Of a stretch of DNA of 64,000 nucleotides, positions 37,377 to 61,048 are shown piece by piece. The notes beneath the pieces were generated by a model that saw only the letters and a list, made by a program, of their open reading frames with translations, made no database searches and was not told where the DNA came from. The number at the start of each line of letters is the position of its first letter. The stretch's first letter is position 1. This stretch comes from Nitrosomonas aestuarii (lineage in GTDB: Bacteria; Pseudomonadota; Gammaproteobacteria; Burkholderiales; Nitrosomonadaceae), in the NCBI RefSeq assembly GCF_003046585.1, contig NZ_QAAE01000001.1, forward strand, positions 1-64,000, read 5' to 3'. The translations under genes and the position numbers were made by a program.

Positions 37377-37646
37377 ATGTATATTTGTGTTTGCAAGGGA
37401 GTGACAGACAGCGCAATCCGCGAAGCGGTCAATAATGGTGCTGAGCGTATGCGTGATTTGAAAACCTGTCTCGGTGTGACTGAACAATGCGGAATCTGTG
37501 CCTGCCATGCAAAGGAAATTCTAGAGCAGGCACGCGCCGAAAAAGCGCAGTTGCATTCTTCCATTCCAGAAATTACGTGCTTAACAACAGAGCAGCCTGA
37601 GGAGACAGACTATGAAAGGGGATACCGATATTATTCAGTGGCTTAA
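37377..37646 (+). CDS. bfd: Bacterioferritin-associated ferredoxin
   Basis: 89 residues; [2Fe-2S] protein that reduces bacterioferritin to mobilise stored iron. Cys4, Cys6, Cys38 and Cys41 match the cluster ligands; two further cysteines are at 31 and 43. It has a C-terminal extension of about 25 residues compared with the 64-residue E. coli protein, and its last 35 bases overlap bfr. Confidence 0.92.
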
Positions 37647-38076
37647 TCGCCAATTACTGCATGAGCTTACCGCGATCAATCAATATTTCTTACATGCCCG
37701 TATGTATAAAAACTGGGGTTTCAACAGCCTGGGCAAGCATGAGTATGATGAGTCAATCGAGGAAATGAATCACGCGGACAAGCTGATAGAACGCATTCTA
37801 ATGCTTGAAGGTCTGCCGAATTTACAGGATCTGGGCAAGTTGATGATCGGTGAGAGCGTTGAGGAATGCGTTGCCTGTGATTTAAAAATGGAGCTGACGG
37901 CGCATGAGACATTAACAGCGGCAGTTGCTGTATGCGAGGCGAAGGGAGATTATGTTTCACGCGAGATTTTTGAAAGTATTCTGGAGGATACCGAAGAACA
38001 TATAGACTGGTTGGAAACGCAGCTTGATGTGATGAAGAAAGTCGGTATACAAAACTGGCTGCAGAGTCAGATATAA
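37612..38076 (+). CDS. bfr: Bacterioferritin
   Basis: 154 residues; 24-mer iron-storage protein with haem b. Met52 (haem ligand) is present, as are ferroxidase residues Glu18, Glu51, His54, Glu94 and His130. The sixth position, Glu127 in E. coli, reads Thr here ([13 protein letters not shown]), with Glu at 128 and 129. The start at 37612 has GAGGAGA upstream and lies inside bfd, so translation is probably coupled to it. Several unusual cysteines (CVACD, VCEAK) are visible in the middle helices. Confidence 0.94.
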
Positions 38077-38243: not shown

Positions 38244-38338
38244 AACAGTACTCCATCAATGAAGAGTGGTAACCCCAGTAACATAGCGCTCAAGAAAAGC
38301 TAACTGGTCTCATCACTCTTCGTTGATGGAGTACTGTT
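38244..38338. repeat. MITE-like element with 27-base terminal inverted repeats
   Basis: The left arm 38244-38270 begins AACAGTACTCCATCAA and the right arm 38312-38338 ends TTGATGGAGTACTGTT; the arms match at 25 of 27 positions, and one mismatch would be a G-U pair in RNA. The 41-base interior continues to fold (CCAGT/ACTGG at 38275-38279 and 38303-38307, TAGC/GCTA inside). The 95-base unit therefore folds almost completely. It has no coding capacity. This is the architecture of a small non-autonomous transposon or a REP-type element; no second copy is in the window. Confidence 0.6.
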
Positions 38339-38460
38339 ATGATACGACGCTTTTTACCAGGTGGTGTCGAGACGCTAAAAAATAAACCTGATCTCTTTTC
38401 CTGACATGCCATTCAACGTACCGAAAGTGGATCAACTGGCAATAGCAGCAAAGAAAAGTA

Positions 38461-40908
38461 ATGAGTATAATAATAAAAATGATTCTTATATACAAGAAAG
38501 AGCAAAATGAATTTAAGCTTTATCTACATTTTTGCTTAAACTGTTTTGTTTTGCTTAGTTGTTTTTTTCTGAATAATGCATTTGCTCAAGTGTCTGAAAA
38601 TAAACATGCAGAAGTGATCGAGCAGACATACAATATTCCTGCTGGGTTGCTGCAAGATGCGCTAAATAAATTTTCGCGACAAGCAGGTATTGATCTTATT
38701 TATGACCCGGCGCTTTTGAAGGGTGCTAAAACACAAGGACTGGAAGGCAGCTTTGACATATCGTCAGGGTTAAATTTTTTATTAATCGGCAGTGGACTCA
38801 GATTCGTTCAACAGACTGAAGGTTATGAAATTGTTGCTGCGCAGTCTGCGGGGGGGCTTGAAGTTTCGGGCGCGCAATCCTCCGGAGGTGTCACCGTATT
38901 ACCCACAATTCAGATATCAGCTGGCAATACCGGAAACTATGCCGCTACCAGCAGTGTCACTGCAACCAAGACAAATACGCTGTTACGCGATGTGCCACAG
39001 TCGATAACCGTCGTGACTGAGGAATTGATAAAGGACCAGGCAATTCAGAGCTTGGGAGATGCCGTGCGATATGTGCCGGGTGTCGGTGTGTCTCAAGGAG
39101 AGGGTAATCGTGATGCCTTGGTATTTCGTGGCAACCGCTCGACCGGTGATTTTTTTATTGATGGTGTGCGCGATGACGTGCAGTTTTTCCGGGATATATA
39201 CAATATCGAACGTGTCGAAGTGTTGAAAGGAGCTAACGGTATGATTTTTGGCCGTGGCGGTTCGGGCGGTGTGGTCAACCGGGTAACCAAGCAGGCGAAT
39301 TGGGATCCGGTGCGTGAGTTCTCATTCCAGGGCGGTTCTTTTAACAAAAAAAGGATGACGGCGGATTTCGGCCATGTGTTGAATGACAAGGTGGCTTTTC
39401 GGGTAAATGGCCTGTTTGAGGATTCTGATAGTTTTCGTGATGATGTGGTCTTGCGTCGTCGCGGCGTTTCACCGACGGTTACGATTAAACCCACCAAGCG
39501 CACCAAGGTCGTTTTGAATATGGAACGCTTTCATGACGACAGAACAGCAGACCGGGGTATCCCGTCTTTTCTTGGCCGTCCGGCAGATGTCAAGAGGTCG
39601 CAGTTTTTTGGCGATCCCAACCGCAGTCATGCGGATGTGGAAGTGCTGGCTTTTAATTCATTAATCGAACATCACTTTGACTTCGGTATGACGCTGCGCA
39701 ACCGGACAAATTATGCACAATACGATAAATTCTATCAAAATGTTTTTGCCAATAGTCCTGTTTTTGCAGACCGGGTGTCGCTGGGTGCCTACAACGATAC
39801 CTCGGACCGTGAAAATGTATTTAACCAGACCGATTTATTGTATTCACTGAACACTGGACCCATCAGTCATACATTTTTAGCCGGTGTTGAAATAGGCCAG
39901 CAGATTACCAGTAATATACGTCAGACAGGTTTATTTAATAACGATCCAAGAGGTACCAGTTTCCGTGTGCCGCTGAGTAATCCGGTTACCAATGTGCCCA
40001 TCTCATTTATTACTCAGGATTCAGATGCCGATAACCGCAGCGTTGTCGATATCACATCGTTGTATATCCAGGATCAAATCGAATTGTTACCCCAGTTACA
40101 GGCTATTGCGGGTGTCCGTTATGATCTGTTTGAAGTAAATTTTCAGAAAAGAAATGGCGAGAGCACGCAAATCAAAACAACCGATCATTTGATTTCGCCG
40201 CGATTCGGTTTGATTTATAAACCGATTGAGCCTGTTTCATTCTATGCAAGCTTTAGCCAGGCATTTGTGCCCAGAGCGGGTGAGCAGTTGACTTCCATTA
40301 TTGTCACCAGAGCCACATTGAAGCCGGAAAAATTCACTACGTGGGAAGCGGGGGTTAAATGGGACATTTACCCGAGTCTTGCACTGACGGGCGCTGTTTA
40401 CAGACTGGATCGTACAAATGTTATTACCATTGATCCAAATGATTCGTCACGGACTTTTCTGACTAAAGGCCAACGTACCGAAGGTGTTGAAATTGGTTTA
40501 AGCGGCCAACTCACATCTAATTGGAGTGTGATGGGTGGATATGCTTATCAGGAGGGGGAACTCACCAGTACGCAATCATCAGATGCGCAAAAAGGTGCAA
40601 CGGTAGCAGAACTTCCCCGCAATACTTTTTCGATGTGGAGCAGGTATGACATTACACCCAGGATCGGTGCGGCATTTGGCGTTATTTACCGCAGCTCAAT
40701 GTTTGCAGCAGTAGATAATACAGTGCGAATTCCTGATTTTACCCGTGTTGATGCTGCTTTGTTTGCACAACTAACCCGTCAGGTCCGGGCACAGATTAAT
40801 ATTGAAAATCTCTTCGATACACATTATTTTGCATCGGTTCATAATAATAATAACATTTCGCCTGGATCGCCTTTTGCAGTACGTGCAACGCTTGTCGCTA
40901 ATTTTTAG
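38461..40908 (+). CDS. TonB-dependent receptor with STN domain (siderophore receptor)
   Basis: 815 residues. Signal peptide with hydrophobic core LYLHFCLNCFVLLSCFFLNNAFA ending near residue 42; STN (secretin/TonB N-terminal) domain at about 56-125; plug at about 150-310 (DVPQSITVVTEELIKDQ, VEVLKGANGMIFGRGGSGG); then the barrel ending in the aromatic VRATLVANF. Plug style is that of Fiu/FhuA-like ferric siderophore receptors. An STN domain normally implies signalling to an anti-sigma/ECF sigma pair, but none is in the window. The start may be 38461 or the ATG at 38479; a weak Fur-like palindrome overlaps these codons. Confidence 0.88.
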   Translation: MSIIIKMILIYKKEQNEFKLYLHFCLNCFVLLSCFFLNNAFAQVSENKHAEVIEQTYNIPAGLLQDALNKFSRQAGIDLIYDPALLKGAKTQGLEGSFDISSGLNFLLIGSGLRFVQQTEGYEIVAAQSAGGLEVSGAQSSGGVTVLPTIQISAGNTGNYAATSSVTATKTNTLLRDVPQSITVVTEELIKDQAIQSLGDAVRYVPGVGVSQGEGNRDALVFRGNRSTGDFFIDGVRDDVQFFRDIYNIERVEVLKGANGMIFGRGGSGGVVNRVTKQANWDPVREFSFQGGSFNKKRMTADFGHVLNDKVAFRVNGLFEDSDSFRDDVVLRRRGVSPTVTIKPTKRTKVVLNMERFHDDRTADRGIPSFLGRPADVKRSQFFGDPNRSHADVEVLAFNSLIEHHFDFGMTLRNRTNYAQYDKFYQNVFANSPVFADRVSLGAYNDTSDRENVFNQTDLLYSLNTGPISHTFLAGVEIGQQITSNIRQTGLFNNDPRGTSFRVPLSNPVTNVPISFITQDSDADNRSVVDITSLYIQDQIELLPQLQAIAGVRYDLFEVNFQKRNGESTQIKTTDHLISPRFGLIYKPIEPVSFYASFSQAFVPRAGEQLTSIIVTRATLKPEKFTTWEAGVKWDIYPSLALTGAVYRLDRTNVITIDPNDSSRTFLTKGQRTEGVEIGLSGQLTSNWSVMGGYAYQEGELTSTQSSDAQKGATVAELPRNTFSMWSRYDITPRIGAAFGVIYRSSMFAAVDNTVRIPDFTRVDAALFAQLTRQVRAQINIENLFDTHYFASVHNNNNISPGSPFAVRATLVANF

Positions 40909-40963: not shown

Positions 40964-40982
40964 AATAATTATTATCATTAAC
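40964..40982. promoter_or_regulatory. Strong Fur-box-like operator
   Basis: AATAATTATTATCATTAAC matches the 19-base Fur consensus GATAATGATTATCATTATC at 16 positions. It is 62 bases before the start of the tandem-domain protein, in the 136-base gap after the TonB receptor, and suggests iron repression of that gene and possibly of the oxidase beyond it. Confidence 0.7.
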
Positions 40983-41044
40983 ATTAGTGTTATTATTACA
41001 CTAGATAAAAATCTAGTCGTGTTTAACAAATAGAGGGTAATTTT

Positions 41045-43318
41045 ATGATTCAAAAATTTAAGACGATTGTTTTGGCCGGTGGTCTTGTCGTTATGACGGG
41101 GGGTCATTTTGCAGTAAACCATGACAGCACAGCCGCGTATGCGGCGACGCTTGAAACAATATCGAAAACAACGGTAGAGGAAGTTAACGCGGCTGTTTCG
41201 GCATTTCAGGAGATCGGTTCGCTCAGAAGAGAAGATCCGATCAATACCGATGCCATACGCAGTGCCTATGTGAATTCAATTCAGGCACTGGCGCAACAGG
41301 CCGATGCAGCCAATGATCTGGCACTTGACGGTATTGTATTGGCCGCGATAGATGAGATCGGCAGCAACAATGAACCCGAACTGGCGGCACAGGTAATTGA
41401 TAAAACCTTGCAACATGTGTTTTTCCTGACTATTCTCGATCGCGTTACTGCTGTACGTGACGATTTTGATGTGACTGACACAGAAACATTGAATTTAAAA
41501 TGGAATGAAGCCGTTGCCGCATTCGAAGCGATAAAAGGGACTGCTGCCAGAGAAAATAAAGTGCTTACGGCCGACAGGCAATCCATACAAACCGGTGATA
41601 ATCCAACGCTGGATATTCAGATCGGTATGGCATTTGAGCGCGGCAGAAATGCGTTAAATAAACAAAATCTGGCAGAAGATAAAATCGAGATCAGCATTGT
41701 ACGGCAGATCATACGTTTATCGTTGGCCAGGGCATATTATATCGGCGTGTTACGGGAGGTCGAGGGTATCATATCGAACCGCAATCGGGATATTGCAGAA
41801 GCCAGAGAAAAACAGAAGGAAGGTGAGAATTTTTACCGGATTATTGAAGATTTTATTACCCGGGAAAATGCGATGGGTAGTGAATTGATTAAGGCGCAGT
41901 TTACAGGGGATGTGGCGCAGGTTGAAGCAGACCAGATAGTCAGTGAACTCAGTAAGGGATTCATAGGTCGCGTACGCGCGGAACTGACTGCCAATGAAGC
42001 GAGCATATTGGATAACCGCGGACGAGCCTTGGAAGTCGCAGAAGAAGCAATTTTGTACGCCAACACTTTCCTCGCCGATCTTGAATTGCGTTTGGATTCC
42101 GCGTCACGCGTTTCTTTGGAAACCGCCTTAAACAGTCTTAAAGCGGCTAGCAATGATATGGATGCAGCAATTGCCGAACAGGCACGCCGGACTGCAACGG
42201 ATATTTTGCTGGCGTATGAGCAGACACTGAATGTTGCAGATTATGAACAAACTCAGAACACGCCTTTTGTCGATGCGGCAGTAACATCATTTCAGACTAT
42301 CGGTGCATTGCGTCGACAATCTCCGGTTGATGCCCAGGCTATTATGGATGCGTATACAGGTGAATTGCAGCAATTAACAAAGTTTATCGATAGTATCCAC
42401 GGACTGGCCATGGATGCCGATATCCTTGCCGCCATAGACAATATCAGCAATAACCAGCAGGTGCCGCTTGCGGCACAGGTCATTGATAAAACTTTGCAAC
42501 GTGTTTTTGTCTTGACGCTGCATAATCGTGTCGTGCTTGTGCTGAATTCGTTTGGCGATCTATCTGTATCCGAATTAGAACTGGAATGGGATAGGGCGTT
42601 CGCTGCTTTTCAGGCGATTAAAGGCACAACAGCCCGAGAGAACAAAGTGTTAACCGCTGATAGGCAATCCATCGAATCCGGCAGCAATCCCTATTTGGAC
42701 AGTCGAATAACACTGGCATTTATACTGGGTAAAGATGCCATAGTGAATGCGGCTTCTGATGGAATGGAGCAGATTGTCCTTGCAAGTGAAAGAATTGTAG
42801 CCCCTTTAGTGCGCAGTTATTTTATCGGCGTGCTGCGTGAGGTGGAAGGTATTGTTGAGAACAGAGCGCGCGATATTGATGAAGCATTGGAAAAGCAGGT
42901 CGAAGGTATCTATTTTTATCGTATTGTGGAGTTGGCAGTATCTCGGTTTAATCCAAGTGGGAATGCTTTAATTAAGTCTCAGTTATCCGGTGATTTGTCG
43001 GCTGTAAATGCAAACCAGATAGTCAGTGAAATTAGCAAAGCGTTAATTGGTTTGGTTAATAATGAGCTGACTGAATTCGAACAAGCATTGGGTTCAGACA
43101 GTGAACAGGCAAAATTGGTGGCTGAGATAGCAGCACTTTATACGCAAATCATACTGCCGGATCTGGAATTACGTTTGGATGCAACGAAACGCGTAAAAAT
43201 AGAAAATGCCCTGCAGGACCTAATCGAAGCTGGTGCAAATAATGATCAGGCAAAAGGAGTTACCGCACAACAGTCCATAACCGGATTGCTTGCGGAATAC
43301 GCAAATACACTGATCTGA
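41045..43318 (+). CDS. Secreted protein made of two tandem copies of a ~345-residue domain; possibly Fea1-like iron protein
   Basis: 757 residues. A signal peptide ends near residue 33 (AYA|AT). The rest is two copies of one mainly helical domain, at about 48-392 and 408-757, with corresponding residues offset by about 362 and almost no gaps. Shared blocks: AIKGTxARENKVLTADRQSI (162 and 524), GVLREVEGI (234 and 596), EKQxEGxxFYRI (255 and 617), NQIVSE/DQIVSE, and LELRLD (346 and 707). Conserved acidic residues in the second and third blocks could bind metal. It has a strong GAGGG ribosome site, a Fur box upstream and a terminator just after. Neighbours are a TonB receptor and a ceruloplasmin-like oxidase. 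I do not recognise it with certainty; the context recalls the algal low-iron-induced periplasmic FEA1 family, which is a hypothesis only. Confidence 0.8.
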   Translation: MIQKFKTIVLAGGLVVMTGGHFAVNHDSTAAYAATLETISKTTVEEVNAAVSAFQEIGSLRREDPINTDAIRSAYVNSIQALAQQADAANDLALDGIVLAAIDEIGSNNEPELAAQVIDKTLQHVFFLTILDRVTAVRDDFDVTDTETLNLKWNEAVAAFEAIKGTAARENKVLTADRQSIQTGDNPTLDIQIGMAFERGRNALNKQNLAEDKIEISIVRQIIRLSLARAYYIGVLREVEGIISNRNRDIAEAREKQKEGENFYRIIEDFITRENAMGSELIKAQFTGDVAQVEADQIVSELSKGFIGRVRAELTANEASILDNRGRALEVAEEAILYANTFLADLELRLDSASRVSLETALNSLKAASNDMDAAIAEQARRTATDILLAYEQTLNVADYEQTQNTPFVDAAVTSFQTIGALRRQSPVDAQAIMDAYTGELQQLTKFIDSIHGLAMDADILAAIDNISNNQQVPLAAQVIDKTLQRVFVLTLHNRVVLVLNSFGDLSVSELELEWDRAFAAFQAIKGTTARENKVLTADRQSIESGSNPYLDSRITLAFILGKDAIVNAASDGMEQIVLASERIVAPLVRSYFIGVLREVEGIVENRARDIDEALEKQVEGIYFYRIVELAVSRFNPSGNALIKSQLSGDLSAVNANQIVSEISKALIGLVNNELTEFEQALGSDSEQAKLVAEIAALYTQIILPDLELRLDATKRVKIENALQDLIEAGANNDQAKGVTAQQSITGLLAEYANTLI

Positions 43319-43323
43319 TCTTC

Positions 43324-43365
43324 AAAGCACCTTGTCAGGAAAATTCTTCTGACAAGGTGCTTTTT
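43324..43365 (+). terminator. Rho-independent terminator
   Basis: A perfect 15-base stem, AAAGCACCTTGTCAG (43324-43338) with CTGACAAGGTGCTTT (43349-43363), a ten-base loop, and a T-rich tail. Six bases after the tandem-domain gene, so the oxidase gene downstream is either read through or has its own promoter in 43366-43447. Confidence 0.9.
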
Positions 43366-43447
43366 CTTATTATTGAGCGAGTGAATTGATTTGAGCATAT
43401 TTAGCAACGGGTATTGCCTGTAATTTTATGAATAAAGGGGTGATCAG

Positions 43448-44530
43448 ATGTGTTGGAAAACAATCTATCGCATAGCGATAGTAATTGTACTGTTCGAATT
43501 ATTGAGTAATCCGGTTTGGGCGAAGAAAGCCAAGGAAAAAGTCTATTGGATAGCTGCAGATGAGGTAAATTGGGATTATGCGCCTTCTTTTCCTGTTAGT
43601 GCGATGTCGGGACAAGAATTTACCGACGATGAGCGCGTATTTGTGGAGGCGGGGATTGGGCGTCGTTATTTAAAATCCGTATATCGAGAATACACGGCTG
43701 GTTTTGCAGCATTAAAACCGAGAAGCGTTGAAGAGCAGCATCTGGGCATCCTTGGACCTATCATCCGCGCCACAGTGGGTGATCGAATTATTGTTCATTT
43801 TAAAAATAATACGCGCTTCCCGGCAAACATTCACCCTCACGGTGTTTTCTATACCAAAGCCCATGAAGGGGCATCTTATGACGATGGTAATAATCATAAA
43901 AGAGATGACATTGTTGCACCGGGTAAAACGTATACTTATCAATGGGATGTTCCTGAACGTGCCGGCCCGGGTCCCAACGATCCCAGTTCAATTGCTTGGA
44001 TTTATCACGGTCATGTTGACGAGCCCGTGGATACCAATGCGGGACTCATCGGACCGATTATTATTACTAAACGTGGTGCCGGAGATCAAAATGGTTCACC
44101 TGTAGATGTCGACCGGGAGTTTGTTACGCTGTTTACGGTATTCGATGAGAATGTAAGCAGCTATCTCGACGTCAATCTTTCATCTTGCAGTGGGTCTTGT
44201 GATCCGGAAGATGAAGATTTTCAGGAAAGTAATCTGATGCATGGTATGAATGGCCTGGTTTATGGCAATAATCAGGGCTATGTCATGGCTAAGCATGAAC
44301 GGGTACGCTGGTATATTCTGGGTATGGGCACCGAAGTCGATCTGCATACGCCGCACTGGCACGGCGCAACATTACTACATAATGGTAACCGTCTGGATGT
44401 GACTGAAGTTTTACCGGCTGCTACTAAAACGCTTGATATGCGACCCGATTCTCAGGGAGACTGGATGTACCATTGCCATGTCAATGATCATATTGGCGCT
44501 GGTATGGTGACGCATTTTGCAGTCAAATGA
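43448..44530 (+). CDS. Two-domain multicopper oxidase, ceruloplasmin-like (probable ferroxidase)
   Basis: 360 residues with a signal peptide ending near residue 25 (VWA). Domain 1 carries H129-P-H131 and H187-G-H189; domain 2 carries H300-TPH-W-H305 and H342-C-H344-x3-H348-x4-M353, so all type 1, 2 and 3 copper ligands are present and the type 1 site is in domain 2. Two-domain oxidases of this kind act as trimers. The domain 1 style (HPHGVFYTKAHEGASYDDG, VPERAGPGPNDPSS, DTNAGLIGPIII) is that of ceruloplasmin and factor V/VIII repeats rather than of laccase. Ferroxidase activity is inferred from this and from the iron context. A strong AAAGGGG site precedes the ATG. Confidence 0.9.
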   Translation: MCWKTIYRIAIVIVLFELLSNPVWAKKAKEKVYWIAADEVNWDYAPSFPVSAMSGQEFTDDERVFVEAGIGRRYLKSVYREYTAGFAALKPRSVEEQHLGILGPIIRATVGDRIIVHFKNNTRFPANIHPHGVFYTKAHEGASYDDGNNHKRDDIVAPGKTYTYQWDVPERAGPGPNDPSSIAWIYHGHVDEPVDTNAGLIGPIIITKRGAGDQNGSPVDVDREFVTLFTVFDENVSSYLDVNLSSCSGSCDPEDEDFQESNLMHGMNGLVYGNNQGYVMAKHERVRWYILGMGTEVDLHTPHWHGATLLHNGNRLDVTEVLPAATKTLDMRPDSQGDWMYHCHVNDHIGAGMVTHFAVK

Positions 44531-46928: not shown

Positions 46929-48206
46929 CTAAACGCTTTCATAGCTTAAAAAATTAGGAGCGAAATTATTGATTTGATAGATTGTCTTTTGAGAAATAGC
47001 ATTCGTAATAACCGCTGATCGCCATGCCATCAGGCTCGTTTGTGGTTCGAAGATTCCGTGTTCATATCTGCTAAAATTTTGCACGAAAATTTTGTTATTG
47101 ACAGATCCTTCCCATTGTATTGAGAAGTCTTTATTTACCTGAAAGCAGTTACTTTCATCAAAATGAATATAATGTTTAATTGAATTGATGAATTTCGGAA
47201 TACTGTTCTCAAAACCGGTACATAAGATCACAATGTCAGCGTTCAGGCGCTCTTTTTTTTGTGTAAAGTGATTTGACAAGCAGAGTTCATAATAGCTGTT
47301 GGTATTGCTGACGCTTTCGAGTCGTCGATACGGAAGGATTTTGAAATTTATCTGAGAATTAACTACGTTTTGTGCATAATAAAGTTCATTGTAAAGATTC
47401 TGTAAATAGGCTGGCGTATTACCATCGCTGGACAACTTTTGATAATTAACAATTTGTTTTTTCAGTTCAATATTTATCGTAAAAAAATCTTCTGCATAAT
47501 TCGGACTGAAGTACTCATTAGTAAATGCGGACTCATCTAAAGGTTCCAGATTGGGTCTGCTGGAAACAAGCGTTACCGATTCTGCACAGCCCCATTTTTC
47601 TTTTAATATATTTCTAAAAACTTCAATACCTGTCTGGCCGCCGCCGATAATCACGATACTTTTATTATGCGTATTCAAGCTTTCTAAAAAAGCAGATTTG
47701 GCATGGAAAAATGTCTTGCTGATATAAGGTACGGTAAACGCCGGAATCTTGGGACTGATTCCTGTACCAATGCATATATTTTTGGTTTTAAATTTCTTTT
47801 CTTTATTCTCAATAGTAAAAAATTTCCCGTCATAACGAAGCGTTTCAATTTTAGAATTGAATGATAATTTTTCCGGCATTTGCTGGGCTACCCACTGACA
47901 ATAGAGCTCAAACTCTTTTCTGGTGACGACGTTTCGGTTGGTATTCATAAATGAATGAAAAAGACCATTCTGTACCAGATAGTTTAGAAAAGAATAGGGA
48001 CTTGTAGGATCGACACCGGTCACGAGGTCTTTCAAAAAAGCCGTTTGCATGTCTGAGTCCGGAAAAATAATTTCCGAGTGCCATTGAAATAATGGCTTTT
48101 CATCAAAGAAATGGGTTTTTAAAAATTTATTTTTTTCTGAAACGGCAGCCAGACTCAGATTGAACGGACCGATCCCGATGCCTGCGAGATCAAGTATATT
48201 ATCCAT
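46929..48206 (-). CDS. iucD: L-lysine N6-monooxygenase, IucD-like
   Basis: 425 residues, the length of E. coli IucD. Flavin enzyme that hydroxylates the side-chain amine of lysine, the first step to aerobactin. FAD site GIGIGPFNLSLAA near the N-terminus, FFDEKPLFQWHSEIIFPDSD, MQTAFLKDLVTGVDPTSPYS, NADPH site VIIGGGQTGIEVF, and the late LCTGFENSIP. Last of four tightly packed genes; its ATG overlaps the iucC stop region by eight bases. Confidence 0.93.
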   Translation of the reverse strand: MDNILDLAGIGIGPFNLSLAAVSEKNKFLKTHFFDEKPLFQWHSEIIFPDSDMQTAFLKDLVTGVDPTSPYSFLNYLVQNGLFHSFMNTNRNVVTRKEFELYCQWVAQQMPEKLSFNSKIETLRYDGKFFTIENKEKKFKTKNICIGTGISPKIPAFTVPYISKTFFHAKSAFLESLNTHNKSIVIIGGGQTGIEVFRNILKEKWGCAESVTLVSSRPNLEPLDESAFTNEYFSPNYAEDFFTINIELKKQIVNYQKLSSDGNTPAYLQNLYNELYYAQNVVNSQINFKILPYRRLESVSNTNSYYELCLSNHFTQKKERLNADIVILCTGFENSIPKFINSIKHYIHFDESNCFQVNKDFSIQWEGSVNNKIFVQNFSRYEHGIFEPQTSLMAWRSAVITNAISQKTIYQINNFAPNFLSYESV

Positions 48207-49935
48207 GGTGATTGCCTTTTGCTAACAGCGGATTTTTCAGCGGATTTCCAAGCTCTGGTCTGGGTCTTTGTGCAGAATCCTGATAACCGATTGCAAAACG
48301 CACTCTATTCAAGAGAATCCGGTGAAAGTTGGATGTCATCAGACTCGGCACATTGGATTGAGTCGGATAATTTTTTTCGTAGTCAGAAATTACGGAACCG
48401 AGTAAGTGATAAAAGTTTGTTTCTTTAAAACGATGTGAAATAAAAAGTGCTTGGGAAACGAATCTGAGCACCGATACAAAATGACCGGTTATCAAATCGT
48501 AAATAATATGTTCAGCAGGAAGAAAATCGATCTTATTCAATGTGCGTACAGAGAATTTGTTTCTTGTCTGCGATGGCAAGTTTTTATTGAATCGTAAATC
48601 ACCCTGAAAATCCTTTATGATCAGGCCTGACGGGATACTGTTTTTAAGTTTCAGTAATGTGTTTTGGCCATGCGCAACAAGACCGATCCCATATTGAGAT
48701 TGAAGATGGTAGAGGGGGATCACCACCTTTTTAAAATACTGTTCTAGCCATTGCTCGATGGACAACAACGATTTATCTATCAGATGGCCGATTAAAGAAT
48801 TTCCATTATTATCCTGAAAAGAGAGTGATCCGGTCATCAGGCATTTTTCATGTTGTTTGAGCTTGGTTGTACTGGGTTCCCGCCATATTGCGCCAAGAAA
48901 TTCTTTATAACGATACGGCGCATCTTGAATATCGCTGTATTCAGGTGAAACATAGCTGAAAGCGGCCACATCCTTTAAACAATCGGTATTTGCTTCAACT
49001 AATACATCATCCTGCTTAAGAATGGATTCAATGCCTTCTGATATATCTGAAGCGACTGAGATATAGTGTGCAGGAATGCCTCTAACGCATGAGGTATTTA
49101 AAATTGAAATGGGCAGTTTTAGATCGTAACGCTGCCTGTTACTGTAATTAGAAAAAGTTCTTATCGATATGTGCGGTTTGTAGTAATCACCGATGCTTGA
49201 AAGAAAGACAATGTTTTTACTACTGATATCTTTCTGAAAAAAGATTCGAATTTTATTTTCCCACTGCCAAGCGTGTACTGGAATAATATAATAAGAATCA
49301 AAATCAATTGTATTATCATTACATATTTCTTTTAAATGATTCATTGCTTGTTTGGACAAATCGGCAGTTGCAATTGCCTCAAAAGATTGCTCTTTTGCGC
49401 AGTTAATCGTAAGCAGATTTTTTTTGATGGCTAAACGAACAAACTTAACCGTGTTACTATTTTCTGGTGCGAAAGCCGACAGGTCGTCCGGAGACCAGCC
49501 GATTCTCCCTTTATTGAGAATAAGCTTAGGATGTCCATTGAGATAGGTTTCTATCTCCAGTGAATCGAGTTGATACATTTTTTCGACAGATATCGGCTTT
49601 TGCAATAAAACTTGATCGCTATAAAGCGTATGGAACATTTCTTCTAGAAAATTGGCGAGGGTGATGTCTCCCATTTTTGTCAAATATTGCGTTTCTTTAA
49701 AAAACCTTGCAGCATCAAGCATCTGACCATCACTGCGTTTTAGTGTATCTGCATCAATAACGAGATCGCACCAAACGCTTTTAAATGCCTTGAAAGCGTA
49801 ATTTACCTGTTTATTTATTCTTAAACTATAAGTGTTTTTTTCTGTTTCACTGAGTTCATCAGTAAAAATTTCTTCAAAATACAGTTCACTGATGGCTTTA
49901 ATGATAAGGTTTCTGTTCGCTGTTTCCCAACTCAT
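48199..49935 (-). CDS. iucC: Aerobactin synthase, IucC-like (NIS synthetase)
   Basis: 578 residues from the ATG at 49935 (MSWETANRNLIIKAISELYF), preceded by GGAGGG and overlapping the upstream stop (ATGA); an earlier in-frame start is less likely. IucA/IucC-family NTP-dependent synthetase joining the second N-acetyl-N-hydroxylysine to the citrate half-product. Typical LSGHPK-like segment (LNGHPKLILNKGRIGW), IPVHAWQWENKI, LNTSCVRGIP, YGIGLVAHGQNTLLKL and KDFQGDLR. C-terminal FhuF-like part follows. Confidence 0.92.
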   Translation of the reverse strand: MSWETANRNLIIKAISELYFEEIFTDELSETEKNTYSLRINKQVNYAFKAFKSVWCDLVIDADTLKRSDGQMLDAARFFKETQYLTKMGDITLANFLEEMFHTLYSDQVLLQKPISVEKMYQLDSLEIETYLNGHPKLILNKGRIGWSPDDLSAFAPENSNTVKFVRLAIKKNLLTINCAKEQSFEAIATADLSKQAMNHLKEICNDNTIDFDSYYIIPVHAWQWENKIRIFFQKDISSKNIVFLSSIGDYYKPHISIRTFSNYSNRQRYDLKLPISILNTSCVRGIPAHYISVASDISEGIESILKQDDVLVEANTDCLKDVAAFSYVSPEYSDIQDAPYRYKEFLGAIWREPSTTKLKQHEKCLMTGSLSFQDNNGNSLIGHLIDKSLLSIEQWLEQYFKKVVIPLYHLQSQYGIGLVAHGQNTLLKLKNSIPSGLIIKDFQGDLRFNKNLPSQTRNKFSVRTLNKIDFLPAEHIIYDLITGHFVSVLRFVSQALFISHRFKETNFYHLLGSVISDYEKNYPTQSNVPSLMTSNFHRILLNRVRFAIGYQDSAQRPRPELGNPLKNPLLAKGNHHG

Positions 49936-50747
49936 AAGTGCCCTCCGGTAAACAGTCGTTCCCGGGTGCATTCCAAGAGCACGGCGTGTTTATGTGGAAA
50001 GCTGAATTCTTTTATTCGCCTCCATACGGGAAAAGAATCTACGTATTGCAGCACCTTTCTGTTATCCGAGCGAGGTTCGGCCATGATTTTTAAAGTTCTC
50101 GGGTCGTCAAGAAAAAGGTAGTGAACAACGCATTTCAATACTGCATCAGTATTTTTGATACCTAAGAACTTTCTCTCTCCGATTAGAAAATGAAAGCCTC
50201 TGTCATAATCGTGGCTGTCGTAGTAAGGCCCCAGTCGGTCTTCCTTCGTCCAGTAAAATTCAAAATACCCAACAGGCTCACCATCGACTTCCAGCATTGC
50301 CGGGATAAGATGTGGATCGGCCAGGTTCTTTTTTATATATTCGAGATGTTTTTCGGGGGTACCTGCAAGCTCCCAGTATTCCGAAACACGTCCGTTGTTA
50401 TGCCATGAAGAAAATACAGCCAAATCTCTTGCCGGATCAATGACTCTGAATACGATTGTTCTGTTGATTTCATAAATGTATCTCTCGTAAAGCGAAGTAT
50501 TTTTCTCCGGGTTGTGTCTCACGGGGTGGGAGACATCGTTAGTTCTCATCCAGGTTGTTGGATAAAGATCGTTTTCAGACGGCTTTATCCAATAAGGGGA
50601 AAATTGAAAAAACTCACTGCGGTTGATTATAATATTATGATTATTCGAGTTAACTTCTATTTCCTGAACGCCGGGCCTGAAGTATTCTTTTAATCGTTCC
50701 TCGTTATTCAGAAAAAAACTTCTCATGGTGGAAACGGTTCTATGCAT
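49932..50747 (-). CDS. iucB: N6-hydroxylysine O-acetyltransferase-like protein, IucB-like (GNAT)
   Basis: 271 residues from the ATG at 50747 (MHRTVSTMRSFF), overlapping iucA by eight bases; an open frame extends 13 codons further. The C-terminal half is the siderophore GNAT domain: EYWELAGTPEKHLEYI, VGYFEFYWTKEDRLGPYY, DRGFHFLIGERKFLG, LDDPRTLKIMAEPRSDNRKV and IKEFSFPHKHAVLLECTRER, matching IucB. It acylates hydroxylysine before condensation. The N-terminal half is shorter than in E. coli IucB (315 residues). Confidence 0.9.
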   Translation of the reverse strand: MHRTVSTMRSFFLNNEERLKEYFRPGVQEIEVNSNNHNIIINRSEFFQFSPYWIKPSENDLYPTTWMRTNDVSHPVRHNPEKNTSLYERYIYEINRTIVFRVIDPARDLAVFSSWHNNGRVSEYWELAGTPEKHLEYIKKNLADPHLIPAMLEVDGEPVGYFEFYWTKEDRLGPYYDSHDYDRGFHFLIGERKFLGIKNTDAVLKCVVHYLFLDDPRTLKIMAEPRSDNRKVLQYVDSFPVWRRIKEFSFPHKHAVLLECTRERLFTGGHL

Positions 50748-52440
50748 TACAAGAATCTTTGGAAATTTTATAGAGTGGGTTATCAATTGCGTTATAGATA
50801 TCTAACGGGTTCTTCTCGGTATTTTCATTGACGCCGTTCAAACAACAAAAAAAATTCCCTTTTTGTTTTAACGTGCTTGAATTCAGTAAGTAATCAATAA
50901 AGGAATAATCCAGTAGATGACTGCTTTTTTTATTCTGCAGGTATTTTAGAACCATCCTGAGTAACGTTTCTTCGGTACACGCCTGTTGTACCGCCAGAGC
51001 ATTGATTAAACTGAATGTTGAATTTATGATGAGATAGTATCCAAGCAGCGCGTGTGCCATCGGGTTATCTAGAACATTACCGTTATTGACGTCGAGGGAT
51101 AATGTCTCGTTTTTCATTTTTTCATAGCCAAGCCGGGTATAGCCTGTTCCCTGGCAATCTCTGAAAATAACGCCGCAGGGATAATTGTCATTTAATTGAA
51201 CAATGATATTCTGCTGATGCGCGCCAAAAAGGATGCCGTAGTCTGCTTGGGCCATAATAAAGGGATCAAGCACATTTTCCAGATACAGGCCAAACCATTT
51301 TTTTGCATCTATACTACGCGATGAAAAAAATCCCTTGTCCAGATACGGATTGGGTTGCGTTATTGTCGACAAAACGATGGCTTCTTTTTTGTCATGCGCC
51401 TTGAAAGGATTTTCTCTGATAAGCACGATTGTTTCCAGGATAATCGGATTTGACAGCCCCTTAATCGCCAGGAATGAAGGCTCGTTCAATATTTGAAAGC
51501 TTGGATGCTCAGTGAGAAACTGCTTTCCGCTGGTTGAATTCATGACTTCGTGGACTTGAAGTCCTCTGACAACTTCAACTGCCTGCAAATGCCTGATTGA
51601 ATTGGTTATTCTGAGCGAAAGTGAAAACTTAAGCATATAATCGCTGTTCTCACAATAAATGGTTCGCAATGAACTCGTCGCTTTCCATTTTAATAGGCCC
51701 TCTTTTTCAATCGGTATCAGGTGTTTATTTTTTATTAACGTATCGATATCATGATGTTTATTGATCACTCTAAATTGCCAGGGATGAAAAGGAAAGGGCT
51801 TGTATTGACTGTCAACGACTTCGTGATGGTCTTGTTCAAAAAGATTGGCACACCAGTCCTCATCAACAAAATGACTTGAATTCATTTGGAAAAAATATTC
51901 TTTTTTAAGTAAAACCCATTTTAAGGCGAATGCATTGCCGAACTCGGGTGCGAATAACTGATGGTCGTGATTTTTAAACTGTTCCTTGCTCTTGGGGCAG
52001 GGATGAAAATTGTGCCCGAGTATGAGTGCCTGTTCAGCGTCTATAAAAGACAAAGGCTTTATTCGGAATAGGGCGCCATAGCCTGGTTTTCTATAAATCA
52101 ATATTTTTATCAGATTTTGGTAGCTTTCCATGATGCGTGGGTAAAGCACGTGAAAACCATCTTTTTTATTGATGATCTGGAAAAGCTCTTGTACAAACAT
52201 TTTAAAGCTTAGCGATTCCTTGTTCCTGTCTATGGTTCTGTAAAAAGCATTTTTATAAGCATGACTACCCACATTAGAATATTGCTCAAGTGCAATACTT
52301 AACGTTTTGCGTTCATTTCTAAATACAATTTCATTATTTTCCACTTCAAAATCATGCCATTCTCTCAGGAGAGAATTAACCAGTGCAGTTGCAGAAAATT
52401 TTTCTGCAAGCTGCTTCGTATTAAAATTCTGATGATTCAT
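50740..52440 (-). CDS. iucA: N2-citryl-N6-acetyl-N6-hydroxylysine synthase, IucA-like (NIS synthetase)
   Basis: 566 residues from the ATG at 52440 (MNHQNFNTKQLAEKFSATAL); the open frame goes 37 codons further upstream, with sequence that does not look conserved. Family motifs: LGHNFHPCPKSKE, FPFHPWQFRVI, TSSLRTIYCENSDYMLKFSL, QADYGILFGAHQQNIIVQL and IFRDCQGTGYTRLG, then KGNFFCCLNGVNENT near the end. Joins the first hydroxamate arm to citrate. First of iucABCD, transcribed away from the divergent MFS gene across a Fur-box-like site. Confidence 0.92.
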   Translation of the reverse strand: MNHQNFNTKQLAEKFSATALVNSLLREWHDFEVENNEIVFRNERKTLSIALEQYSNVGSHAYKNAFYRTIDRNKESLSFKMFVQELFQIINKKDGFHVLYPRIMESYQNLIKILIYRKPGYGALFRIKPLSFIDAEQALILGHNFHPCPKSKEQFKNHDHQLFAPEFGNAFALKWVLLKKEYFFQMNSSHFVDEDWCANLFEQDHHEVVDSQYKPFPFHPWQFRVINKHHDIDTLIKNKHLIPIEKEGLLKWKATSSLRTIYCENSDYMLKFSLSLRITNSIRHLQAVEVVRGLQVHEVMNSTSGKQFLTEHPSFQILNEPSFLAIKGLSNPIILETIVLIRENPFKAHDKKEAIVLSTITQPNPYLDKGFFSSRSIDAKKWFGLYLENVLDPFIMAQADYGILFGAHQQNIIVQLNDNYPCGVIFRDCQGTGYTRLGYEKMKNETLSLDVNNGNVLDNPMAHALLGYYLIINSTFSLINALAVQQACTEETLLRMVLKYLQNKKSSHLLDYSFIDYLLNSSTLKQKGNFFCCLNGVNENTEKNPLDIYNAIDNPLYKISKDSCNA

Positions 52441-52559
52441 TTTCAATATACATCCAGCGAATAAGCATATTTTTTGGATTTTGCGTGATAAGTTACGCCA
52501 ATACAGTGTAGATCCACTATTCAGTGCGTTATGCAATAAGATAGCAGTCAATTAATGTA

Positions 52560-56077: not shown

Positions 56078-58168
56078 TTACCAGTTGAATGCGTAAGTAA
56101 AACCGACGATACGTCCCGGGCCCGTGGCAAAACCATAAGGCGTACCCGAAGCCTGACTGACTAATGGAAAATAATTTTCATTTAACAGATTTTTGACGGC
56201 AACAGTAAAATGTCCTGGCCCTACTGCAATACTTGATGTCAGGTCGACAATGACATAATCATCTACAGGCAGCCCGCCAAATTGTGTTGAATTGGGTGTT
56301 CGGTCACCGATATATAATGCCTGCATTCGGTTTTGCCACCAGCTTAACGGGCTATATTCGAGAAAACCTGATAACTTCACTGGCGAAATTCGGGTATTCG
56401 GTAAATCTTCATCAAACTTGCCGTCATTATCCAGGTCCATCTCGCCTTCCGCCCAGCTTGCGGTGCCGCCAACATTTACTTGTTCATTCACCTGATAAGA
56501 CAATTCGCCTTCAACGCCCCAGATACGTTCGGGTAGCTTAATGATGCTCAGGTCTTTGTTAAAGGTAGTGCCATTATTCGAGTCGCTGTAGAAACCCACT
56601 ACTGACGCCTGCACAGGTCCATAGCGGCCGCGCAGGCCCAGTTCGAAGTTATCGACCTTTGCTGCTTCGGAGGCCAGCTGACCGGCGCTGGAAATTGCCG
56701 CATTTGCGTCTCTGATTGCACGTCCGATATCCGCAATAGAAAAACTCTGGGAATAGCCGCCGTAGAGCTCAAGGTAGTCCGTAATGAATACAACTGCACT
56801 GCCATTAAACAATGTGTTGTTATAATCCACCTCATCACCGCTGACGCTGTTTCCACCGCGATTGATTACATTTGAAATGTCGACAGAGATGGCTTCCTGA
56901 CGGACGCCGCCCCGCAATATCGCATAGTCGCTAATCGGTAATTCAAGCTCTAAAAATCCTGCAAGCGCATCTTGTCGCATGAAAGGCACGACTGTTGGTC
57001 CATCAAGTCCTGCCTGAACCACCTGATCGCGCAGATAATCCAGACCCCAGATTGCACTGAACTCGTAATTTTTAATGGTAATGGGGGTGTTAATCGTTAA
57101 CCGGCTGCCAAATTTTTCAGCCCTGACTTCAGTTTGTGCAAACCCTGGAAATTTGGCAAAGCGCGCGATCTGATCGCCATAATAGCCTTTCAGAGAAACA
57201 TGGCTGCCAAAAAAGTTTTTATTGATATAGTCAACACCCACAAGTGTGTTTTTTGTCCCGGGATTAAATGGATTAAATTGACCGCGCACCGCCGGAGTTT
57301 TGATGCCATTCGCCGGATCTCCGAGGCCGAATGTATAGTTGGTGTCCTGTCTGATATTAAAATGGTTAACAGTGAATTGCACACGCTGCCGGTCATTGTC
57401 AAAATTAAAACCCAATTTCCCGAGAATATTAAAGGTATTGGTGTCGGCCAGTCCGCCCTGCACGCCAATTGGATCGGGGGCAATACGATCACCGCTCGCA
57501 TCAAAAAATTGGCCACGTTCACCGTATGTACCGGACACCAGATAATCCATATTGTCCCGTGTACCGGAAATCCGATGTGTTGTCTCCCACATAATTGAGT
57601 CATCAAAATGCTGTGTTGAGAAACGTATGCCGCCTTTTGAAAAACCTTCTCTCAACTTCTTGGAGGCGTGCTTGGTAATAATGTTAATCAGGCCACCGGC
57701 TGCGCCAAAACCATAAGCGGCAGTGCCGCCCCGCACAACCTCGATACGTTCAATCGCATCGACATCAATGGTATTCAGATCACGACTGGATGTGCGAAGG
57801 GCAGTTGACTGCGGAATACCATCGATTAACACCAGGTAATCACGACCACGCAGCGTCTGGCCGAACGATGAAAGTGCTTCCGTGCTGGGTCCCAGCCCAG
57901 GTACGGTTTTGGCCAAAACATCACTTAAATTACGTGCAAATGCCGCTTGTTGCTGAATATCTTTATTGGATATCACGGTCACTGAACGGGTTGTTTCCGA
58001 GACGGGCGTTTCAGTCCGCGTGGCCGTGACAACGACTGGTTCCATAGCGCTATTGCGGCCAGATGTGTCCTGCGCGAAAAGTTGGTTGGATAATGTGCCT
58101 CCAATCAACAATAGTTGAACGGGTAACATGCGATGCCATCTGTAGATTAAATTAAATATTGTTGTCAT
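56078..58168 (-). CDS. TonB-dependent ferric siderophore receptor, IutA-like
   Basis: 696 residues from the ATG at 58168 (MTTIFNLIYRWHRMLPVQ); an in-frame ATG at 58225 falls within the Fur box and is less likely. Signal peptide ends near NQLFA. TonB box-like PVVVTATRTET, plug with LSDVLAKTVPGLGPS, RGRDYLVLIDGIPQS, IDAIERIEVVRGGTAAYG and GAAGGLINIITK; the barrel ends in FTYAFNW. Several segments (GVEGELSYQVNEQ, DYNNTLFNGSAV) are reminiscent of the aerobactin receptor IutA, matching the iucABCD operon 4 kb away. No STN domain. Confidence 0.85.
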   Translation of the reverse strand: MTTIFNLIYRWHRMLPVQLLLIGGTLSNQLFAQDTSGRNSAMEPVVVTATRTETPVSETTRSVTVISNKDIQQQAAFARNLSDVLAKTVPGLGPSTEALSSFGQTLRGRDYLVLIDGIPQSTALRTSSRDLNTIDVDAIERIEVVRGGTAAYGFGAAGGLINIITKHASKKLREGFSKGGIRFSTQHFDDSIMWETTHRISGTRDNMDYLVSGTYGERGQFFDASGDRIAPDPIGVQGGLADTNTFNILGKLGFNFDNDRQRVQFTVNHFNIRQDTNYTFGLGDPANGIKTPAVRGQFNPFNPGTKNTLVGVDYINKNFFGSHVSLKGYYGDQIARFAKFPGFAQTEVRAEKFGSRLTINTPITIKNYEFSAIWGLDYLRDQVVQAGLDGPTVVPFMRQDALAGFLELELPISDYAILRGGVRQEAISVDISNVINRGGNSVSGDEVDYNNTLFNGSAVVFITDYLELYGGYSQSFSIADIGRAIRDANAAISSAGQLASEAAKVDNFELGLRGRYGPVQASVVGFYSDSNNGTTFNKDLSIIKLPERIWGVEGELSYQVNEQVNVGGTASWAEGEMDLDNDGKFDEDLPNTRISPVKLSGFLEYSPLSWWQNRMQALYIGDRTPNSTQFGGLPVDDYVIVDLTSSIAVGPGHFTVAVKNLLNENYFPLVSQASGTPYGFATGPGRIVGFTYAFNW

Positions 58169-58206
58169 TTTAGTTTTAATATAATAATGAGAAAAATAAA
58201 CTAAGC

Positions 58207-58225
58207 AATAATGATTAGCATTCAA
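58207..58225. promoter_or_regulatory. Fur-box-like operator upstream of the IutA-like receptor
   Basis: AATAATGATTAGCATTCAA matches the 19-base Fur consensus at 14 positions, with the core ATAATGATTA intact. It is 39 bases before the preferred start codon. The rest of the 291-base gap to the PepSY gene (58169-58459) is AT-rich with no gene. Confidence 0.65.
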
Positions 58226-58459: not shown

Positions 58460-59557
58460 TCATGTTAGCCGTGCCTTTGTGAATTTCGCCTGCGGTTTCT
58501 GCCGCCGATACCACCAGGTATACAGGCCAGTAACAAACAATAGAGATGGGGCCAGTCCTGCTGCAAACATCAGTAAACGGCCCGGCAACCCTGCAGCGGT
58601 TCCAATATGTAAAGGGTATTTTAGATCTGCAATTTGTTGACCAGTCCCGCTATATTTAGCATCATGATTCATCAACACTTCGCCCGTCACAGTATTTAAT
58701 GCGACATAACTTGTGCCATTTGGATGCGAATTTTCCGGATGTTTCAGTCTGACAACAAAAGGTGCTTGCGGATGGCTTGGAAATCGCAACCAGGTCGCCT
58801 GCGCATCAGGTACAGTAGACTCGGCAGTCTTCAGTAGTTCACTGGGTGTAATAGGTGTGACTTGCGGTGCTGCAATTTCAATTAGCGGCGGTTCGGGTAG
58901 TCCTGGACCACCAAAAACCGCGATCAGCGCAGCGTTGGTTTGTTTGTAGAAAACCATAGCGGTGCCTGTCAGCGCAGCAGTAAAAAGCAATATCATTGAA
59001 ATCAATCCAACTGAGCGATGCAGCGCAAACCATCGCGCTAATCGAGACTCTTTACGAGGTATGCGCAGTGCATTTAATAGTTTCCGCCAGCCTGGCCATG
59101 CCAGCCATAATCCGGTTAAAACTGTTAGCAATAAGACTATTCCTATGAATCCGTTAACAAGCAATCCGTTATCGCCTGCCAGTAGGTGTACATGAAAATC
59201 ATGCAGAAAACCTAATAGACCAGCGTGCTCATCACGCTTGCCGAGGATCTCCAGACTCCATGGGTTAACGTATACAAGCTGTATCACTTTATCATTTTCT
59301 ATCCAATATTCGATGCTGCGGTGTGGTTCTCGTGGCAAACGAGCCAGTAACAGGGTGTGATTTGGAAATTCGATCCGAACCTTATCAGTTGCTTCGTCCA
59401 ACCGGACAGGTTCGGGTTGCGGATTGACGTGCCAGAGGTTGGAATTAAAGTAGACGTCCAGTTCATCATCGAAAACGAGAATACTTCCCGTTAATCCTGA
59501 CAGACTAAAAATTGCACCGATAACAATTCCGACCCACAAATGTATTTTTTGTAACAA
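58460..59557 (-). CDS. PepSY-associated membrane protein (siderophore-iron reductase type)
   Basis: 365 residues beginning with TTG at 59557 behind AAAGGA (LQKIHLWVGIVIG after the initiator). Four main membrane segments: near residues 5-28, 130-155, 185-210 and 335-355. PepSY-type periplasmic segments lie between them. Conserved histidines in HLWVG, FLHDFHVHLL and WFALHRSVG fit haem or metal binding within the membrane. Related proteins (PiuB, FpvG) take part in reductive release of iron from siderophores. It lies just upstream of the IutA-like gene on the same strand, and its own Fur box is 250 bases upstream. Confidence 0.83.
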   Translation of the reverse strand: MLQKIHLWVGIVIGAIFSLSGLTGSILVFDDELDVYFNSNLWHVNPQPEPVRLDEATDKVRIEFPNHTLLLARLPREPHRSIEYWIENDKVIQLVYVNPWSLEILGKRDEHAGLLGFLHDFHVHLLAGDNGLLVNGFIGIVLLLTVLTGLWLAWPGWRKLLNALRIPRKESRLARWFALHRSVGLISMILLFTAALTGTAMVFYKQTNAALIAVFGGPGLPEPPLIEIAAPQVTPITPSELLKTAESTVPDAQATWLRFPSHPQAPFVVRLKHPENSHPNGTSYVALNTVTGEVLMNHDAKYSGTGQQIADLKYPLHIGTAAGLPGRLLMFAAGLAPSLLFVTGLYTWWYRRQKPQAKFTKARLT

Positions 59558-59804
59558 GTGATGTCCTTTCCAATTAATAATAAAAATAGTCGTATAAGTT
59601 TTTTAAAACAGCATGTTTTATTCGGCTTGCAAGGTGATGCAGCTGGGTGGTTGTGAGAAATTCACGGCGCGAGTAACAAATTATCTAACTCAAAGAAAAT
59701 CTCCTCATCGTTGATGCGACGGGCTTGTAGTGTAAAAGAACCGCGGTAGTTGGTGATATTGATAGCACTTTAATCATTAAGTTATTTTTGATAATAATGC
59801 TAAT

Positions 59805-59823
59805 GATAATGATTATTATTAAT
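59805..59823. promoter_or_regulatory. Strong Fur-box-like operator upstream of the PepSY gene
   Basis: GATAATGATTATTATTAAT matches 16 of 19 positions of the Fur consensus, with the first 12 identical. Flanking ATAATAATGCTAATG extends the repeats, so two Fur dimers may bind. In the 439-base gap 59558-59996, which otherwise shows no gene. Confidence 0.72.
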
Positions 59824-60926: not shown

Positions 60927-61048
60927 ATGCAATTCATCCAAATAATATTTAGTTATAATAATCTAACACAATATTATTTTGAATTATATAGAGATGTTGT
61001 TATCATGCCGCCTTCCCAAAGTTTTGAAAATAATAATTAGGATAGTGA

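Follow-up and report, generated by a model that had tools for sequence, protein, structure and literature searches.

A candidate periplasmic iron-assimilation module of an FEA-like protein and a ceruloplasmin-like oxidase in Nitrosomonas aestuarii

In Chlamydomonas, the available part of one report describes FEA1 as secreted under iron starvation and expressed together with FOX1 and FRE1, and the crystallized protein as Gln19-Ala362 (PMC8098128). In the accessible text on Ot-Fea1 of Ostreococcus, the Fea1 domain is described as duplicated and the protein as loaded with iron (PMC4855317), and a review, also available in part, places the phytotransferrin ISIP2a as a distant relative of FEA1 (PMC7676907). 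Here, we describe a gene pair of comparable composition in a stretch of 64,000 nucleotides (nt) from Nitrosomonas aestuarii (contig NZ_QAAE01000001.1, positions 1 to 64,000), called the window below. It consists of a gene for a secreted FEA-like protein with two tandem domains and a gene for a ceruloplasmin-like multicopper oxidase. On balance, we think it fairly probable that the two form a periplasmic iron-assimilation module for iron starvation, with the FEA-like protein as the iron binder; secretion, iron binding, transfer, and uptake by this module are functions that we infer from the sequences.

For the oxidase, described relatives are of a different build. Six-domain oxidases have been proposed to derive from a triplicated two-domain protein, and the bacterial six-domain relatives among those listed in the available text have 1231-2681 residues, including an 1886-residue protein of Nitrosomonas europaea (PMC3600357). 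In N. europaea, the operon NE1538-NE1543 contains a TonB receptor and a multicopper oxidase, and a role in iron is suggested in the accessible part of the report (PMC10781756). When the same species was infected with a phage, two multicopper oxidases were strongly induced along with low-iron genes, as far as the available text of that study goes (PMC13356812).

The FEA-like protein and its probable distant link to the FEA1-related group

The FEA-like gene (positions 41045-43318, forward strand) encodes a protein of 757 residues with a start that resembles a signal peptide by eye, and the secreted tandem-domain protein claimed by an earlier sequence-only reading of this DNA is indeed present. 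Domain 1 (residues 36-395, positions 41150-42229, forward strand) was confidently modeled as that half alone with AlphaFold2 (predicted local distance difference test [pLDDT], 96; predicted template modeling score [pTM], 0.92). Domain 2 (residues 396-757, positions 42230-43315, forward strand) is 49% identical to it over 359 alignment positions (E 6e-102). The protein contains no Cys and five His, with a calculated isoelectric point of ~4.5 without the first 34 residues. The prediction for the whole protein was also confident (pLDDT 90, pTM 0.86), and the models show a mainly helical domain with two short strands. With Foldseek, neither the full model against PDB and BFVD nor the single domain against PDB gave a match at E <=0.001 (best E against PDB, 0.018 and 0.016). 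PDB sequence searches with the protein and with its profile A1, for which 33 of the 48 available halves were used, gave nothing credible. The nearest named relatives, from Nitrosomonas marina and Nitrosomonas sp. Nm51, are 73-74% identical, and a search of a plasmid collection gave no match.

Possible oxygen donors are well conserved in the domain. Y75, D87, D119, D177, E238, E259, Y264, D345, and Y391 are each found in at least 59 of 61 FEA-like domains, and these residues may bind Fe. An Ftr1-type REXXE motif was also considered and was rejected, as it is not conserved.

Homology to FEA1, which the sequence-only reading had proposed, was borne out in part. Against the NCBIfam model NF038033, named "FEA1-related lipoprotein," the protein scored 41 bits (E 9.6e-11), far under the cut-off of 250. 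The model matched the same region in both halves and was matched by 21 of 24 relatives (E <=0.01). The Pfam family DUF4856 (PF16148) reached 24.5 bits, over its gathering cut-off of 22.3, and was found in just 3 of the 24. Thus, a distant link of the protein to the FEA1-related group is likely, and its identification as FEA1 is plausible but unproven. The part that was not supported is Pfam membership, since Fea1 (PF07692) gave no match to the protein up to E 10. For the 24 relatives, the families listed (25 of 46) did not include PF07692, in output from which HMMER drops most weak matches. Among 299 Pseudomonadota genomes it was found in none; the positive controls were equally 0, so this says little on absence. 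Direct membership in the algal FEA1 family is therefore not supported, with no PF07692 match and NF038033 matched only below its cut-off.

In the 299 genomes, NF038033 matched 16, of which 2 were Nitrosomonas, and in the other 14 all matches lay at profile positions 11-127, the N-terminal end. Such N-terminal-only matches, including some in Nitrosomonas, look compositional and were not used. Because the FEA-like protein has no Cys, the lipobox Cys of an NF038033-type lipoprotein signal is not present. The EfeO/imelysin M75 domain gave no Pfam match in the protein up to E 10. The TBDR-pTFP system of S. maltophilia was also considered as a related system and rejected, since the accessible text on it concerns an unrelated thioredoxin-fold protein. 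Among the papers listed by our literature searches, none was found that links FEA1-like proteins with Nitrosomonas or anammox bacteria, and none was found that names DUF4856.

The ceruloplasmin-like oxidase and its iron site

The oxidase gene (positions 43448-44530, forward strand) encodes 360 residues, with a signal-peptide-like start (by eye) and two cupredoxin domains. Human ceruloplasmin is built from a two-domain unit that is present three times. The oxidase aligned with each of the three over residues 10-359, 31-359, and 30-359 at 238-254 bits each, and 138 of ~350 and 147 of ~329 positions were identical for the first two. The oxidase had initially been read as a two-domain enzyme with a ceruloplasmin-like domain 1; it is two-domain and ceruloplasmin-like, but the likeness is not confined to domain 1 and is shown by both domains. 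The oxidase contains four HxH motifs, and its domain 2 has all residues of a type 1 copper site (H129/H131, H187/H189, H300, H303/H305, H342-C343-H344, H348, and M353, which we take to be the type 1 and trinuclear copper ligands).

The iron site of ceruloplasmin presumably comprises E935, H940, and D1025 with E272, and E971, and in the alignment these numbers landed on aligned residues. At the corresponding positions, the oxidase has E260 and H265 (positions 44225-44242; E935 and H940 of ceruloplasmin), E296 (positions 44333-44335; E971/E272), and D347 (positions 44486-44488; D1025), all on the forward strand. All four residues were present in 19/19 ceruloplasmin-like oxidases, compared with 0/9 distinct control oxidases. 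The 19 were the window's own, 8 of its close orthologues, and 10 members of a second group, and their alignment (A3) was made without the broken copy of genome G008 (L029/L089). The controls were genus and order oxidases with copper histidines, hand-picked among weaker matches (L218 = L040, counted once), and where the HCH motif aligns, five of the nine show HDH instead. The alignments argue for the window oxidase being a probable ferroxidase. As a separate observation, the two-domain oxidases of L212-L216 have the Cys of the second-domain HCH replaced (HDH), and therefore type 1 copper is possible only in domain 1.

In ceruloplasmin, neither the trinuclear copper centre nor the iron site is confined to a single unit. 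Thus, the simple prediction for a protein corresponding to one such unit is that it works as a homotrimer. Oxidases of this type (E <=1e-25) were found in 2/299 Pseudomonadota genomes, both Nitrosomonas.

The second group of ceruloplasmin-like oxidases (L101-L110) is 44-48% identical to the window oxidase. In 10/10 of its loci, a member of a single gene family (DUF2325 according to Pfam, tested for one member) lies upstream of the oxidase gene, with a gene for 550 residues between the two in L102 and L108. A ferritin gene is found in the surroundings in L101 and L110 and a hemin-type TonB receptor in L103. The DUF2325 family that adjoins this group was also seen downstream of an FEA-like gene, as a gene for a 456-residue protein (L171:8005-9375).

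Distribution, neighbors, and control of the FEA-like gene

A total of 74 FEA-like loci were found. The neighbor counts exclude L184 and the 12 loci from planctomycetes, and the 61 others were mostly titled Nitrosomonas, with a few titled only Proteobacteria, Gamma- or Betaproteobacteria, or Nitrosomonadaceae. Two of them (L173 and L180) share one assembly, and loci with too little flank were dropped from each denominator. The FEA-like gene was present in 28/37 genus genomes and in 0/24 other genomes of the order. The oxidase lay directly downstream in 17/53 non-planctomycete loci, although two of the 17 copies are short (L152, 188 residues; L156, 167 residues). Thus, the proposed co-occurrence with a ceruloplasmin-like oxidase does recur, but the oxidase is not obligatory. 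A close oxidase orthologue was present in 10/37 genus genomes, all 10 of which also have the FEA-like gene, and the two genes are adjacent in 8 of them, with one oxidase copy broken. That copy (L089:9807 onwards, G008) stands beside a full-length FEA-like gene and may be a pseudogene or an assembly error. Just past the FEA-like locus, RTX-like and cytidylyltransferase-like genes were seen in many Nitrosomonas (L079, L086, L092, and others).

Outside this set, the domain was found, with 50-58% identity, in records of Planctomycetota (12/74 loci), among them Candidatus Brocadia, Kuenenia, and Anammoxibacter. Of these proteins, 11/12 have a single FEA-like domain, and the one Brocadia protein scanned has a carboxypeptidase-regulatory-like domain followed by the FEA-like domain. 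The next gene on the same strand encodes a cytochrome with two CxxCH motifs in 10/11 planctomycete loci with downstream DNA, at a distance of -29 to 359 nt. Anammoxibacter (L126) is the exception, with two FEA-like domains and no such di-haem cytochrome. In a midpoint-rooted tree, the N-terminal halves, C-terminal halves, and planctomycete domains formed separate clades (support 0.988, 0.75, and 0.993). The tree is consistent with a single ancient duplication in Nitrosomonas and with transfer of the domain, in either direction, between nitrogen-cycle bacteria. A side observation from Brocadia is an 862-residue protein with a multicopper-oxidase-like region and eight CxxCH motifs, encoded downstream of the FEA-like gene (L130:17069-19657).

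A TonB receptor orthologue lies directly upstream of the FEA-like gene in 47/55 non-planctomycete loci and is far commoner as a neighbor than the oxidase. In the window, the receptor that the sequence-only reading had placed before the pair was confirmed at positions 38461-40908 (forward strand) and is of the siderophore type (TIGR01783, 306 bits; cut-off, 223.5). After the oxidase come a cytochrome c gene and then, on the other strand, siderophore biosynthesis genes (positions 46929-52551). The latter comprise a Lys/Orn monooxygenase, an IucA/IucC-like synthetase, an acetyltransferase, and a second synthetase-like open reading frame (ORF). Three of the four have a Pfam basis, and the second synthetase-like ORF (positions 50740-52551) was called by eye with none. 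These neighbors favor a siderophore route only, in which the FEA-like protein would bind the ferric siderophore imported by the receptor and the oxidase would be a bystander or would oxidize the siderophore or copper. However, no match to the receptor was found in the available DNA of the 12 planctomycete loci, which in 10/11 cases have the di-haem cytochrome instead. In addition, the oxidase retains an iron site that is missing from the control oxidases. We therefore regard the siderophore route on its own as unlikely.

Genes for other redox proteins were also found near the FEA-like gene. Within 5 kb downstream, a di-haem CCP/MauG-like gene (c17) was present in 9/53 loci, in 2 of them together with the oxidase, and in L115 a DHOR gene lies ~800 bp downstream. 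Thus, what part of the variants have in common is a secreted FEA-like domain near a periplasmic redox protein, be it the oxidase, a di-haem MauG-like or DHOR enzyme, or a di-haem cytochrome. The one di-haem neighbor tested, that of L137, was nearest the MbnH family TIGR04039 (47.9 bits; cut-off, 362.85). This similarity and the conserved Y75, Y264, and Y391 would suit protein modification, in which the FEA-like protein gains its metal site through side-chain oxidation by a MauG/MbnH-like enzyme and the oxidase substitutes for that enzyme. A copper oxidase would be an odd stand-in for a MauG-type modifier, and the oxidase iron site points to Fe(II) as the substrate; we consider this explanation very improbable.

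A near-consensus Fur box upstream of the FEA-like gene, another claim of the sequence-only reading, was corroborated. The site at positions 40964-40982, 62 nt before the start codon, matches 16/19 positions of the classical consensus. This score is reached by two regions in the 64 kb, and 30 shuffles of the 200-nt upstream stretch gave a mean of 12. The survey covered 200 nt upstream of genes in the window and loci L073-L098, a set other than the 74 loci above, except L098 and the receptor of L088, which lack upstream DNA, and used other genes from those loci for comparison. Sites of at least 14/19 were found at 19/26 FEA-like genes and at 28/172 other genes (Fisher p 1e-8), and sites of at least 16/19 at 8/26 and 1/172 (Fisher p 2.5e-7); the genes in both tests are not independent. 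Such control bears on whether the pair protects the cell rather than feeding it, with the oxidase clearing Fe(II) or Cu(I) that is toxic in the periplasm and with the FEA-like protein as a buffer. Multicopper oxidases such as CueO do protect against copper and iron, and ammonia oxidizers are rich in copper and haem. Fur-box-like control, however, predicts expression at iron scarcity, the opposite of what detoxification needs, and protection is in our judgment quite unlikely.

Several observations weigh against the iron-assimilation module. The FEA-like fold has no PDB match and no metal ligand set is known for it, and the R/K-E/D-x-x-E motifs claimed for algal relatives are missing from 22/61 FEA-like domains. 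Downstream of the FEA-like gene, both the oxidase and the c17 di-haem gene are missing from 29/53 loci (L115 counted among them), and in two of the nine loci with the di-haem gene the distance to it is 3.8-3.9 kb. The close oxidase orthologue of G018 and G019 is not beside the FEA-like gene, and the second oxidase group has identical iron-site residues but sits elsewhere. With respect to control, sites of at least 15/19 were found at 0/23 receptor ORFs, and only 1/8 oxidase genes (L073) has its own site of at least 14/19. Thus, it is the FEA-like gene itself that looks like the Fur target. In the window, moreover, a strong intrinsic terminator (positions 43324-43363, forward strand; 17-bp stem, -26.8 kcal/mol, z -8.3) parts the FEA-like gene from the oxidase gene, and therefore the oxidase may be under only partial control of the Fur site. 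A strong terminator (~-20 kcal/mol or lower) follows the FEA-like gene in 3/8 oxidase-bearing loci (window, L073, and L086), and in the other 5/8 it is weak or was not found within 130 nt. Expression of the window oxidase may depend on read-through or on a promoter of its own.

In the window, the gene order from left to right is ferritin, TonB receptor, Fur-box-like site, FEA-like gene, terminator, and oxidase. The ferritin gene (positions 37612-38076, forward strand) is bacterioferritin-like (Pfam Ferritin, 137 bits). A bacterioferritin-like ferritin gene lies no more than 7 kb upstream of its FEA-like neighbor in 10/45 loci, and ExbD in 14/45. In G018, siderophore genes of the acetyltransferase and Lys/Orn oxygenase-like types are close to the oxidase (L099). 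Neither FTR1 nor FeoB was found in the window genome; FTR1, rejected there as a partner permease, was present in 5/41 Nitrosomonas-genus genomes. FTR1 and the FEA-like gene never occurred together, all 4 FTR1 genomes among the 37 being without the latter (chance 0.0019, uncorrected for kinship or incomplete genomes). FeoB_C was found in 0/41 Nitrosomonas-genus genomes by a search that found it in 7/14 controls.

Two further features of the window were noted. Between the ferritin and receptor genes, an inverted repeat with arms of ~24 bp (positions 38245-38340, by eye) might be a small mobile element. Fur-box-like sites that overlap and score 16/19 on either strand lie at positions 59793-59823 between a PepSY-type gene (positions 58460-59557) and a LysR-like gene (positions 59997-60941), and the PepSY-type gene is followed by a TonB-receptor-like ORF (positions 56078-58225); all three were called by eye and are on the reverse strand.

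Proposed function and comparison with known systems

The iron module suggested by the sequence-only reading is well backed by conservation, with Fur-box-like sites before orthologues, the TonB receptor, ExbB/ExbD/TonB, ferritin-like and siderophore genes, the recurring gene pair, and the ceruloplasmin-type iron site. At low iron, Fur would release the FEA-like gene, and the secreted tandem-domain protein would accumulate and bind Fe(III) through its conserved Tyr, Asp, and Glu residues. The oxidase, one third of ceruloplasmin, would assemble into a homotrimer with the trinuclear copper and iron sites across subunits and would turn Fe(II) to Fe(III) with O2, and the FEA-like protein would then hold Fe(III) in the periplasm. 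In relatives, the redox role may be taken by a di-haem peroxidase-like enzyme or a di-haem cytochrome.

A broader proposal is possible, and we advance it tentatively and with some doubt. It is a bacterial iron-capture module in which an FEA1-related iron-binding domain common to Nitrosomonas and anammox-type Planctomycetota works with an exchangeable redox enzyme, which in Nitrosomonas would be a homotrimeric one-third ceruloplasmin that retains all copper- and iron-site residues. No module of this type turned up among the papers listed by our literature searches. If the proposal is true, bacteria have a counterpart of the algal FEA1-FOX1 pairing, and the oxidase is a living model of the two-domain protein from which ceruloplasmin has been proposed to descend. 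Ammonia oxidizers and anammox bacteria are drivers of the nitrogen cycle with an unusually large demand for haem iron, and the module provides definite candidate genes for their iron supply. In addition, the oxidase is a small expressible unit for study of the ceruloplasmin triplication and the cross-subunit iron site.

The comparison with the algal system extends to domain size and architecture. As far as the available texts go, Chlamydomonas FEA1 is a secreted domain of ~345 residues, like the FEA-like domain (PMC8098128), and Ot-Fea1 is a tandem duplication, like the window protein (PMC4855317). The coordinate expression of FEA1 and FOX1 in the alga is paralleled in the window by the adjacent ceruloplasmin-like oxidase gene and Fur-box-like control. 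However, algal FOX1 is treated as six-domain in the accessible text (PMC3600357) and the window oxidase is two-domain, and the window neighbor is a TonB receptor, not a permease such as FTR1. With NF038033 and DUF4856, the similarity of the FEA-like protein is local (41 and 24.5 bits), and it differs from the former in having no lipobox. With human ceruloplasmin, the copper ligands and iron-site residues are all aligned in the window oxidase, but ceruloplasmin has six domains and the oxidase two, so that restoring the copper cluster would require a trimer.

In EfeUOB and similar systems, an iron binder of the periplasm is paired with an adjacent redox enzyme. The window would share this pairing of binder and redox enzyme but differs in the binder, which has no M75/imelysin match, and in that no EfeU/FTR1 was found in the genome. 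The bacterial six-domain oxidases, in the available text, are also ceruloplasmin-type relatives, but are far larger than the 360-residue window oxidase (PMC3600357). The operon NE1538-NE1543, from the accessible part of its description, resembles the window in having a TonB receptor and a multicopper oxidase together (PMC10781756), and its oxidase probably belongs to the second ceruloplasmin-like group, near a DUF2325 gene as in L103.

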